From IMG/VR virus record IMGVR_UViG_3300023216_001265, positions 1 to 34,456 of that record: a DNA stretch of 34,456 nt. One strand, given 5' to 3'. Both the position numbers and the translations under genes were made by a program. Numbering within the stretch: the first letter of the stretch is position 1; every line of letters begins with the position of its first letter. A model generated the notes under the pieces. It was given only the letters and a program-made list of their open reading frames with translations, did not search any database and was not told where the DNA came from. Source of the stretch: a virus. Of the stretch, positions 8,066-18,714 are shown piece by piece.

Positions 8066-8551
8066 TCAGTAGAACTTGCCACCCATATGGACTACATCTG
8101 GGCGCATTTTCTTCATCTTCTCAAAGAGGGCCATGCTGGCAGGGTTCATAATCCTGCCCCATCGCACAGCCGCCCCCTTGGACACCTTCTTTTTGTAGAA
8201 CTCTTTGAGAAGTTGGGTGGCGAGACCCTTTCCCCGCTGGTCTGAACGAGTGATCACCAGATGAATGTAGAGGTCTTTCCCCCCACCGCCGTAGTCGATG
8301 TAGGCGATGTCACAGGGGTCCGTGACTCCACGGCTTTCCAGCACCGGTTTCTTTAGACGCTTGTGAGTCCGGTCGCTCCAACGACGGTACTCATCAGTGA
8401 AAAGGTACTCGCGTTTTGCGGGAGGGTCTACCTTAGAGTCACAGAGAGAGAACCTGCGGGCATAATCCACACGCGGGGAACGCTCATCCCGAAAGGTGGT
8501 GCGAGCCATCCGGTAACGGCTGGCAACTCTAATGGCAGAAGGCGCGGTCAA
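8066..8551 (-). CDS. GNAT-family N-acetyltransferase
   Basis: The GNAT core appears as LYIHLVITRSDQRGKGLA (residues 94-111), where QRGKGLA is the acetyl-CoA pyrophosphate-binding motif A, followed by a helix LLKEFYKKK and a C-terminal NPASMALFEKMKKM. The fold acetylates amines on small molecules or proteins; the substrate cannot be told. The ORF starts with a TTG at 8551 preceded by GAGGA; choosing it keeps an N-terminal IRVASRYRMAR motif that also appears in two other proteins in this window (11100-11546, 12244-12558). An internal ATG at 8509 is an alternative. It is convergent with the zinc-finger gene at 7574-8062. Confidence 0.75.
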   Translation of the reverse strand: MTAPSAIRVASRYRMARTTFRDERSPRVDYARRFSLCDSKVDPPAKREYLFTDEYRRWSDRTHKRLKKPVLESRGVTDPCDIAYIDYGGGGKDLYIHLVITRSDQRGKGLATQLLKEFYKKKVSKGAAVRWGRIMNPASMALFEKMKKMRPDVVHMGGKFY

Positions 8552-9034: not shown

Positions 9035-9391
9035 CTACCATTGTAGGTAGATGCCCTTCGCCGTCGTCTGGAACTCGCTGACATTGGCCTTTTTCAACCA
9101 TGTGGCGAGTTTCTGTGCGTCCATTGGCCCGAAGGCTTTGAAAGGCCCGGCTGACACCGTTTTCCCAAAATAACGCACTCGCCCGCTCGACATATCGAGT
9201 GCGCGGAACTTCCGTTCAAAGTCGGCGGCGAGATTCTGGTAGGGGGCGAGAGTCTCGTCCACTGCTGGGGTCGGTGCAGCCTGCTTGGACTTCTTCAAGC
9301 CAGCCAAGATGACCTTCCGCTCGTCTGACCCTACAGGTAGAGTCGAAGCGAGGCGTATGAGGGCTTTTCGGTCAGAAGCGGTGAGGTTCAT
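9035..9391 (-). CDS. Protein with LIRLASxLPxGSxERK N-terminal module (copy 1)
   Basis: Starting at ATG 9391 (AGGAGA eight bases ahead), the 118-residue product opens with MNLTASDRKALIRLASTLPV then GSDERKVILAGLKKS. The same opening occurs in the proteins at 16761-17453 and 17463-17798, and a variant in 17836-18714. The rest (PYQNLAADFERKFRALDMSS, then VRYFGKTVSAGPF) is unrelated to the others. A longer frame to 9529 is open but its extra 46 codons run antisense to a GIY-YIG relic, so I reject it. I do not recognise the C-terminal domain. The shared opening looks like a detachable terminal signal. Confidence 0.75.
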   Translation of the reverse strand: MNLTASDRKALIRLASTLPVGSDERKVILAGLKKSKQAAPTPAVDETLAPYQNLAADFERKFRALDMSSGRVRYFGKTVSAGPFKAFGPMDAQKLATWLKKANVSEFQTTAKGIYLQW

Positions 9392-11099: not shown

Positions 11100-11546
11100 T
11101 TACTCATTCCAGAAACCCATCGACCAATTGTTGATGTCTTCTGCGTCATAGCCGTACTTTTTGGCAAGCTGAAAGAGCTTCTTGCGATGCTTCTGGCCCC
11201 ACGCCCCCATATGGGCATAATCACCTTGAGGGGAAAAGAGATCGTATCCAGCACCGTCATAGGCGATGATGACATCTGCGCCTTCACCTCCTCGGGGGGC
11301 ATAGGTGTCGATGTCTTTCCCTGCCCATACCTTGATATCGGCAACCGGGTCGTACTTCCCGCCCTTTCCGTGGTCAGCCCCCATGTCTCGGGATTCCTCG
11401 GCCCGAATATCATCCAGATACTTGAGCAGGGCTTGCTGCAAGTGTCGAGCATTGCGCCCAGCATACTTGGAGCCCGCAGCCCTTTGTCGTTGGAGCCATC
11501 GACCCCCCACGCGAAGAGGGCTGCCATATTGGGTATCGGCTTTCAT
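11100..11546 (-). CDS. Hypothetical protein with RVGGRWL N-terminal motif
   Basis: From ATG 11546 (TAATG overlap with the stop of the upstream gene) the product is 148 residues. It begins MKADTQYGSPLRVGGRWLQR, a motif similar in position and spacing to the IRVASRYRMAR start of the acetyltransferase at 8066. The middle has a helical AGRNARHLQQALLKYLDDIRA; the C-terminus is rich in Tyr and Gly. A TTG at 11558 would add four residues. No family recognised. Neighbouring genes look like virion or internal proteins. Confidence 0.65.
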   Translation of the reverse strand: MKADTQYGSPLRVGGRWLQRQRAAGSKYAGRNARHLQQALLKYLDDIRAEESRDMGADHGKGGKYDPVADIKVWAGKDIDTYAPRGGEGADVIIAYDGAGYDLFSPQGDYAHMGAWGQKHRKKLFQLAKKYGYDAEDINNWSMGFWNE

Positions 11547-11797
11547 TAGTCTTCCCAACGAATCCAGCCTTCTACACTGGTAGGGGCATTGGCTTTCTTG
11601 TCCTTCTTTTCTTTCTCGTCGTTTTCCTCACCCTCTTTCTTCTTCTTTTCGCAGTTGTCGCGCATCGGGCCTTCAGGCAGCTTTTCACAGCCTGCTTCCT
11701 TCTCCCTGGCGACCATCTCCCGAAGGGTCATCAGAACTTCTCCCGTAGAAAGGGAAGTCTTATACTTCATGGCGGCTTTTTCAATCGGTAACTTCAT
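11546..11797 (-). CDS. Small charged hypothetical protein
   Basis: The 83-residue product has a central run of Glu and Lys (CEKKKKEGEENDEKEKKDKK) and two cysteines, CEKL and CEKK. It is likely largely helical or disordered. AGGAG precedes ATG 11797 and the stop overlaps the next gene by one base (TAATG). No family recognised. It may be an assembly or scaffolding accessory; low-complexity charged proteins are common in phage head clusters, but that is an inference. Confidence 0.6.
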   Translation of the reverse strand: MKLPIEKAAMKYKTSLSTGEVLMTLREMVAREKEAGCEKLPEGPMRDNCEKKKKEGEENDEKEKKDKKANAPTSVEGWIRWED

Positions 11798-16760: not shown

Positions 16761-17453
16761 TCAATCAGCCTGGGGTTGTCCAGCCGACCGAACACGATCC
16801 CAACTGATATTTTTCAAGCGGTAGGGGCGCAAGACCTTCGCCAACTCCCCTGTGTCGTTCGACAGGCCCGAGCCGCCCATCCCCCACAGGATGTTCTCCC
16901 TACCAGTGTAAAATCGGGGGTCTTCGACTGAAGCATTGTAGAGGCCATCACCATCCCCCCACGCCTTAAACATCTGCTTTTCACCTTTACTATCAATGCC
17001 CCAGAATCGGTATTCCCACTCCTTCCCGCCACCATTGACCTTATCGATGAATCGAATAATCTCGTTGAGACCAGCGGCCCGTTTGAGGGAAGCCCCATGA
17101 CCCTCAGCCGACCCCTTAGGGAGAGCAGCGGTCTTCCCTAAACCAGCGAGAAGATCCTTAACGTCTTGTTCAAGAGTGCGGTCATCACGCACGCTGCCGA
17201 GAACCTTGATGAGCCGGTCCAGTTCACGGGTCGTGAAACCCTCGTTCTTGAACATAAAGCGCAAAGCCTTCAGCCCTGCTTCTGCGCTCTCGGCTCCTTT
17301 GATAAATCTTGCGTATTCCTCAACCACGTCACGGCGGGATGCACCGGACTTATTGAGCCCAGCGAGAATGGCTTTACGTTCTTCTGATCCCGCTGGAAGG
17401 GTAGAAGCCAACCGAATCAGGGCTTTCCTATCTGTGGCAGTAAGAATCTTCAT
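16761..17453 (-). CDS. Protein with LIRLASxLPxGSxERK N-terminal module (copy 2)
   Basis: From ATG 17453 the product is 230 residues. It opens MKILTATDRKALIRLASTLP followed by AGSEERKAILAGLNKSG, nearly identical to the openings of the proteins at 9035 and 17463. The following region is helical (DVVEEYARFIKGAESAE), and a C-terminal globular part holds WEYRFWGIDSKGEKQMF and a Trp/Gly-rich end. No known domain. A TTG at 17456 would add one residue. It is adjacent to the other copies in a three-gene block. Confidence 0.7.
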   Translation of the reverse strand: MKILTATDRKALIRLASTLPAGSEERKAILAGLNKSGASRRDVVEEYARFIKGAESAEAGLKALRFMFKNEGFTTRELDRLIKVLGSVRDDRTLEQDVKDLLAGLGKTAALPKGSAEGHGASLKRAAGLNEIIRFIDKVNGGGKEWEYRFWGIDSKGEKQMFKAWGDGDGLYNASVEDPRFYTGRENILWGMGGSGLSNDTGELAKVLRPYRLKNISWDRVRSAGQPQAD

Positions 17454-17462
17454 CAAAGCCTC

Positions 17463-17798
17463 TTAGAGCATCTTCTTGAGTTCGGCCTTGATCGCCTTGG
17501 CCACCGGGCCCCGCCACGAACTGGCGTTCGCCAGGAAGTACGCGACGATGCTGGTGCCGCTGTCGTACCCGTAGTTATCATTGATGCTCCGCAGGTCGAA
17601 CATCGCCTCCAAGTAGGGCTTGGCGGCGTAGTTCACCTTTGATCCCCAGTCCAATCGGATGTCGTTGGCGATCTCGTGCAGAGGGCGTGCCGCCTGCTTA
17701 GGGATGCTCCCCAGGATTGTCTTACGTTCCTCTGATCCTGTAGGGAGAGAAGCTGCAAGTCGAATCAAGGCTTTACGGTCTGATGCTGTGAGGTTCAT
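17463..17798 (-). CDS. Protein with LIRLASxLPxGSxERK N-terminal module (copy 3)
   Basis: The 111-residue product begins MNLTASDRKALIRLAASLPT then GSEERKTILGSIPKQ, like copy 1. The C-terminal domain (LHEIANDIRLDWGSKVNYA, SIVAYFLANASS) is helical and not shared with the other copies. The DNA of that domain is visibly richer in G and C than the surrounding genes, which hints that it was acquired separately. Function unknown. The start ATG at 17798 is in line with the other copies. Confidence 0.7.
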   Translation of the reverse strand: MNLTASDRKALIRLAASLPTGSEERKTILGSIPKQAARPLHEIANDIRLDWGSKVNYAAKPYLEAMFDLRSINDNYGYDSGTSIVAYFLANASSWRGPVAKAIKAELKKML

Positions 17799-17835: not shown

Positions 17836-18714
17836 CTATTGGGAGAGAGTGGCGGCCACCCGAATAAGGGTTTTACGTTCATCACTTCCTTTCGGAAGAG
17901 CGACCGCAGCACGCAGAATGGGTTTCTTCGCCGGGGTTCGCGAAGCTAATCGAGCCGCCTTTTCTGGGTCCATGTCTACCGCACCTTTGGCCCACACACC
18001 CCAATCCGGGGTTAAGTGGACTTCCTTGGCCCCAACTACGGGAATATCCCACGCCCCCGTTTCCGGGTTCTCCCGCATAAACCACTTCATTCCTTGGTGT
18101 GGGTTGTAGCGAATCTGTACCCCGGTACGAGAACCGGCACGACCGGGAGGATCAGCAGTAACTAGTCGCCCAATAGGGGCCGCATGGACGGTCTTTTCAC
18201 CACCCTCAGCCTTGGATTGTCCTGATGCACCCACCACAAAGAGCGCATCTTTGAGAATCGCTCCAAAGACATGACCCAATGTCCGTCCTCCAATGGAGCG
18301 ACCGTTGGAAGGCTTTACAGACCAAGTTTTCAATCCATGTGCTTTTTTCTTATGGCCCAAGTTCAAATGAACGGCCACATTCTGACCGCTACGGGCAGTC
18401 ATAAAGGGGTAGGGGCTGTAAAGAAGGGCTTGTCGTTCTTCCTCTGAAATATCTCCTTTACGAGCGCGAGCGGCGAGGTCTTTATCCCGAGAAGCATCCC
18501 ACTTGCCTCCTAGGGCCACCTCTTCATCAAAAGACGGCCCCCTTGCTACCAGACGATGGCCTTCGACCTCAACATCCAATCCTCGGAAACTTCCCACTTC
18601 CCCATTGATGAGCAACGCTTGGCACAGGGCGCGGCGAGCCGGAGAACCCGCTTCCAAAGCGGAAGCTACCCGGATCAATTCTCTGCGGGTGTGGGTAGAA
18701 AATGAAGAAAGCAT
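17836..18714 (-). CDS. Protein with LIRVAS-type modules at both ends (copy 4)
   Basis: From ATG 18714 (GGAG ahead) the product is 292 residues. It opens MLSSFSTHTRRELIRVASAL then EAGSPARRALCQAL, a divergent form of the module. It closes AAVALPKGSDERKTLIRVAA ending TLSQ, a second copy in which the same elements appear in rotated order. Between them lies a domain with GRTLGHVFGAILKDALFVVGA and IRYNPHQGMKWF that I do not recognise. The frame to 18735 is longer but lacks a good start. The repeat at both ends of one protein is unusual. Confidence 0.7.
   Translation of the reverse strand: MLSSFSTHTRRELIRVASALEAGSPARRALCQALLINGEVGSFRGLDVEVEGHRLVARGPSFDEEVALGGKWDASRDKDLAARARKGDISEEERQALLYSPYPFMTARSGQNVAVHLNLGHKKKAHGLKTWSVKPSNGRSIGGRTLGHVFGAILKDALFVVGASGQSKAEGGEKTVHAAPIGRLVTADPPGRAGSRTGVQIRYNPHQGMKWFMRENPETGAWDIPVVGAKEVHLTPDWGVWAKGAVDMDPEKAARLASRTPAKKPILRAAVALPKGSDERKTLIRVAATLSQ

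Follow-up and report, generated by a model that had tools for sequence, protein, structure and literature searches.

A portable tag of about 35 residues, predicted to fold as a helical hairpin, on unrelated proteins of large uncultivated phages

Module copies and protein bodies in the window

The window analyzed here, a 34,456-base stretch of a virus record taken as a whole, carries nearly all of its genes on the - strand. On this strand we located five copies of a module with the consensus LIRLASxLPxGSxERRxIL, four at N-termini and one at a C-terminus. All five were found with a profile made from other phages' copies only, with no window sequence included, and the same profile gave a top match of 0.067 in 20 shuffled six-frame sets; chance is excluded as the source of the motif. 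The copies, the protein bodies that carry them and two further proteins built with other modules are listed below, with iE values from the other-phage profile for the five copies.

9287..9388, - strand: module copy 1, N-terminus of 9035-9391 (iE 1.4e-20)
17349..17453, - strand: module copy 2, N-terminus of 16761-17453 (iE 1.1e-18)
17697..17795, - strand: module copy 3, N-terminus of 17463-17798 (iE 4.2e-17; AlphaFold2 helices 5-16 and 23-31)
18613..18699, - strand: module copy 4, diverged, N-terminus of 17836-18714, RRELIRVASALEAGSPARRAL (E 4.2e-4; other-phage profile iE 6.3e-5)
17851..17931, - strand: module copy 5, C-terminus of 17836-18714, ILRAAVALPKGSDERKTLIRVAATLSQ (iE 2e-6)
18010..18390, - strand: body of 17836-18714, Mycobacterium phage L5 gp82-like domain (Pfam PF25735, E 1.2e-10; phrog_586, E 7e-10)
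17463..17696, - strand: body of 17463-17798, 72-aa phrog_13953 domain (E 1.1e-24)
16761..17348, - strand: body of 16761-17453, an orphan for which no body homolog was found among related contigs
9035..9286, - strand: body of 9035-9391, an orphan
8513..8539, - strand: another kind of terminal module ("mod3", of the IRVASRYR type), with which the GNAT-like protein 8066-8551 begins (iE 0.0055)
11546..11797, - strand: 83-aa protein strung from recurrent modules (LPIExA; AGCEKLPEGPMRDNCEKK; xxSVEGWIRWED)

The original prediction described an opening common to 9035-9391, 16761-17453 and 17463-17798, with a diverged form in 17836-18714, and we found it in all four, each on the - strand (the ATG at 9391 that starts 9035-9391 is preceded by AAGGAG). 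The term "opening" fits these four N-terminal copies but is too narrow, as the module also closes and interrupts proteins. The protein 17836-18714 closes with copy 5 (RAAVALPKGSDERKTLIRVAATLSQ-stop) and is therefore tagged at both ends. The sole homolog found for its body (G001:172854-173714) is likewise tagged at both ends, and no IMG/VR relatives of this body were confirmed.

The remaining sequences of the four proteins had been called unrelated, and when their translated bodies were compared with the module masked, no similarity to one another was found. The possibility that the carriers are full-length relatives of one family thus fails, as they are not homologous outside the module. The single weak match in the masked comparison (23 aa, E 8e-4) fell in the untranslated segment 9461-9529 (-), upstream of the ATG at 9391; it encodes 23 residues resembling the L5 gp82-like domain of 17836-18714 and is perhaps a recombination remnant. 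About ten other phages encode the body of 17463-17798 by itself, as an untagged protein of ~74-79 residues whose start codon coincides with the end of the module in the window; in further phages it forms the C-terminal domain of larger proteins. Because this body is found tag-free elsewhere, the tag is separable. The AGCEKLPEGPMRDNCEKK module, in the middle of 11546-11797, comes directly after the LIRLA module in several proteins of other phages; the locus of 11546-11797 holds mosaics of 280-820 aa in other phages.

No Pfam or PHROG model matched over the module. The PDB offered no credible sequence match to the module and no fold match to a tagged protein, searches for isolated-phage relatives by the tag alone returned chance matches only, and no earlier description of the module was found in the open-access literature.

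Distribution, selection and exchange of the tag

Searching IMG/VR with a degenerate DNA pattern located the module in 30 stretches, to which a second pattern added more, and profile matches were present in 24/24 contigs tested, reaching 25 copies in one 297-kb contig. Twelve contigs were assembled from the fetched stretches, giving 13 sequences with the window (G002 was excluded, as it duplicates part of G001), and codon-scored gene calls were made on the fetched contigs for the present analysis. We counted 103 copies in these 13 sequences, comprising ~83 N-terminal (a permissive class), 14 C-terminal and 6 internal ones; the counts are not fully independent since some contigs, such as G004 and G008, are near relatives. 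A motif-blind tally of 5-mers close to protein termini ranked LIRLA first, with occurrences near the N-termini of 41 mutually unrelated proteins. Where contigs were long enough to compare, they had terminase, portal, clamp, clamp loader and other genes in common with the window, indicating that they belong together as a single group of large phages whose tails have a contractile sheath. The clamp loader of one of them (G003; L119:9036-11122) is a DnaX-like gene apparently split by an intein-like insert (ends ...SFFAGSGPTPNRGVLVHNC). A scan of bacterial genomes yielded 14 exact pattern matches, with real modules in only two, the MAG contigs L048 and L049; L044 was marginal (E 0.0056) and the remaining pattern matches failed the profile.

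Most carriers have one copy, while single proteins with two, three or four also exist, and mosaics of 750-1100 aa carry 3-4 tags. A conserved protein of 756-878 aa has the module at its N-terminus, in its middle and at its C-terminus (L107:717-3050, L104:9641-11911, L123:16262-18898 and L130:3141-5699); nothing in Pfam or the PDB matched it, and it is possibly a core component or a major cargo. We dropped a sigma-factor-like region considered for this protein, which PDB and Pfam profile searches did not support. A segment recurring between the domains of mosaic proteins (in L007, L034, L104, L130 and others), LKKHQFxxxDNPNPKGNDKDGDGxTNEPxP, contains an EF-hand-like DxDxDG loop.

A14 and G20 do not vary among the 101 distinct copies; conservation is 99% for R24, 98% for S or D at position 21, 96% for L28, 94% for R12 and 68% for E23. 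Agreement at fourfold-degenerate sites between copies within one genome was 0.366 overall, compared with 0.27-0.44 expected from codon usage by genome. For the window copies it was 0.268, against 0.279 expected; being at the codon-usage level, these copies are not recent DNA duplicates. Saturated synonymous sites together with a conserved protein mean that the copies are old at the DNA level and that selection acts on the peptide, and the same saturation rules out a DNA-level repeat or a common gene start. Genome-specific dialects were not found within the present phage group (identity 0.634 within genomes vs 0.640 between them), and the same tag version throughout the group suggests one conserved partner. 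AlphaFold2 predicts that the module is an autonomous helical hairpin, with helices at residues 5-16 and 23-38 and a pLDDT of 96-97 over residues 11-30; for 17463-17798 it predicts the two module helices followed by a lower-confidence loop to the body.

Also found in these phages are the terminal modules M..LRxILAxEGL, at N-termini, and RVAxRY, at N- or C-termini. At G009:47893-48675 the LIRLA tag sits on a body that is 62% identical to the LRxILAxEGL-tagged bodies at G004:124843 and G008:37402, and the same exchange of tags is seen between G001:285824 and G008:37402. Profile comparison found no similarity between the LRxILAxEGL and LIRLA tags. Beta-solenoid proteins carry the LIRLA module at several loci and a sister module, LIRLAHxxPELRPxLLPLL, at another; the two modules are related (profile-profile E 3.3e-5, probability 72%). 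In LR745208.1 (L145), a 485-kb metagenomic phage sharing 57% terminase identity with the window, we found 11 copies of the sister module and 0 of the window's module. Six other contigs have 9-15 copies of the sister module each, and there the LIRLASxLPxGSxERRxIL module is absent or weak.

These observations give good support to the view that the module is a portable, two-helix tag of ~35 residues on dozens of otherwise unrelated proteins of large uncultivated phages. They also bear out the earlier suggestion that the motif acts like a signal or a tag for binding, not like an enzyme domain: homologs of a tagged body lack the tag, tags are exchanged, placement is N-terminal, C-terminal or internal, the hairpin is predicted to be autonomous, and each phage has many clients. 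More tentatively, large uncultivated phages might run a protein "zip-code" system, in which the hairpin tag, in lineage-specific versions, and at least two exchangeable terminal tags (LRxILAxEGL and RVAxRY), with up to ~25 copies per phage at N-terminal, C-terminal and internal positions, would load an open-ended set of effectors into the virion.

Carriers, genomic neighborhood and possible function

Tagged bodies are accessory and cargo-like, having a homolog elsewhere in the group in 36% of cases, compared with 79% for untagged genes. Tagged genes adjoin one another 36 times, where 10.9 were expected (maximum 21 in 1000 shuffles). They also concentrate around certain genes: of 72 tagged genes, 22 lie ≤6 kb from a sheath, TerL or C39-peptidase gene, where 9.9 would be expected, and 0/2000 shuffles reached 22. 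This comparison is supportive rather than blind because the 6 kb radius and the anchor genes were picked after the gene maps had been viewed. A gene for a head maturation protease is present in the group (phrog_18299, E 9e-13). From sequence reading and position beside the protease, a 290-aa protein is a candidate major capsid protein and another a candidate scaffold.

We consider it very probable that the module is a portable tag for one shared partner. It would be a self-folding helical hairpin, placed N-terminally, C-terminally or between the domains of accessory "cargo" proteins and recognized by one conserved phage partner. This partner would most likely belong to the prohead or particle, as a core or scaffold component or as part of the packaging or tail apparatus. 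The virion would then take up the tagged proteins and deliver them on infection, much as happens with proteins that have a T4 CTS or the P1 DarB N-terminus, and in some copies the head maturation protease of the phage may later cut the tag at S-x-E. That the module delivers its carriers into the particle, as the analogy with the T4 CTS and P1 DarB and the clustering near sheath, terminase and C39-peptidase genes suggest, seems to us an even call. To the explanation as a whole (hairpin tag, prohead or particle partner, virion loading and delivery, partial cleavage) we assign a probability of roughly 0.5.

Some of the genomic evidence counts against a virion destination. Within 6 kb of protease, scaffold and capsid genes we found 0/47 tagged genes, where 3.3 were expected. 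The recognized bodies on LIRLA-tag carriers (L5 gp82-like, beta-solenoid or bactofilin-like, and WGR) are virion proteins as candidates only, which we likewise counted against this reading. In favor of such a destination, ART-PolyVal, GNAT, NUDIX and C39 domains, the kind of cargo seen in injected polyvalent proteins (PMC5512222), occur among the carriers of the LRxILAxEGL and RVAxRY tags, although none was among the recognized domains of LIRLA-tag carriers. The main alternative is that the tag docks onto a conserved hub outside the particle, such as a host protein or a complex for transcription or replication, with the clients cooperating inside the infected cell. All of the evidence for a portable binding tag fits such a hub equally well. 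The lack of tagged neighbors around the protease and capsid genes also speaks for it, and near replication genes tagged genes are at chance level (15 vs 14.7 expected). We nevertheless regard it as rather unlikely, given the clustering near sheath, terminase and C39-peptidase genes, the polyvalent-type cargo borne by the exchangeable tags, and the fact that known precedents of common terminal tags are virion-targeting.

Alternatively, the tags may bind each other, building a composite of many proteins in which two-ended and multi-copy proteins act as cross-linkers. Such homotypic assembly would be in keeping with the proteins that have two, three or four copies and with the predicted hairpin. 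However, most carriers have a single copy, and exchange with the unrelated LRxILAxEGL tag is left unexplained, making this an improbable account.

Somewhat less probable still, in our view, is that the module serves chiefly as a propeptide, which the head maturation protease would cut at S-x-E, and that its other conserved residues are there only for protease recognition. In phiKZ-like phages and SPN3US, the prohead protease is known to cut at S-x-E and A-x-E (PMC5694885, PMC10052503); S-x-E is present in 62/96 copies of the module, and A-x-E-G is typical of the LRxILAxEGL tag. However, about a third of copies have other sequences at this point (GDKSR, GSPAR, GDETR and others), and the R, A and G residues outside the site are nearly invariant; the positions with the strongest conservation are more in line with a folded hairpin than with a protease site. 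With S-x-E in 62/96 copies only, cleavage is possible but not general, and we rejected a universal S-x-E cleavage tag as the sole function. Lastly, selfish or neutral recombinational spread of a gene-start segment encoding a functionless peptide, which could account for the many copies per genome and the frequent adjacency of tagged genes, is very hard to reconcile with protein conservation over saturated synonymous sites and with the C-terminal and internal copies.

If the docking and virion-loading explanation is true, the cargo of large phages could be read from sequence, with each tagged orphan gene being a predicted virion-delivered protein; one could then test which of the many uncharacterized small proteins in large phages accompany the DNA into the host, and a packaging tag of about 35 residues would be ready-made. 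Should the destination be other than the particle, one hairpin on dozens of unrelated clients would still point to an unrecognized hub.

Comparison with known targeting systems

In T4, the CTS of IPI-IPIII and Alt steers unrelated internal proteins into the prohead, and Alt is processed at both termini (PMC9026906). Like the CTS, the module is a short terminal element common to several unrelated proteins of one phage, and both T4 and the module phages have a head maturation protease. However, the CTS is an N-terminal propeptide of 10-20 residues, whereas the module has ~35 residues and a predicted hairpin fold and is also found at C-terminal and internal positions, its cleavage site is not strictly conserved, and its clients are many more. 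Packaging by the module is proposed by analogy, and we do not claim homology. In P1, 30 N-terminal residues of DarB suffice for capsid targeting (PMC9024508). This signal resembles the module in length and N-terminal position, and what is an address label for capsid entry in P1 may by analogy be one here, although the P1 Dar proteins have no common sequence while dozens of module carriers have one.

Polyvalent proteins of phages and conjugative elements are mosaics of varied effector domains that have been proposed to be packaged and injected (PMC5512222). The likeness extends to the ART-PolyVal, GNAT and C39 domains on carriers of the other tags, not of the LIRLA tag; the available text of that account concerns globular domains and does not describe a short common tag that marks cargo. 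For SPN3US and phiKZ, the available portions of the reports cited above for protease sites (PMC10052503, PMC5694885) describe head propeptides that the prohead protease cuts at A-x-E or S-x-E and that are thought to target cargo. As described there, these propeptides are mostly 111-254 residues long and have no module common to unrelated proteins, in contrast to the short tag found on the carriers studied here.
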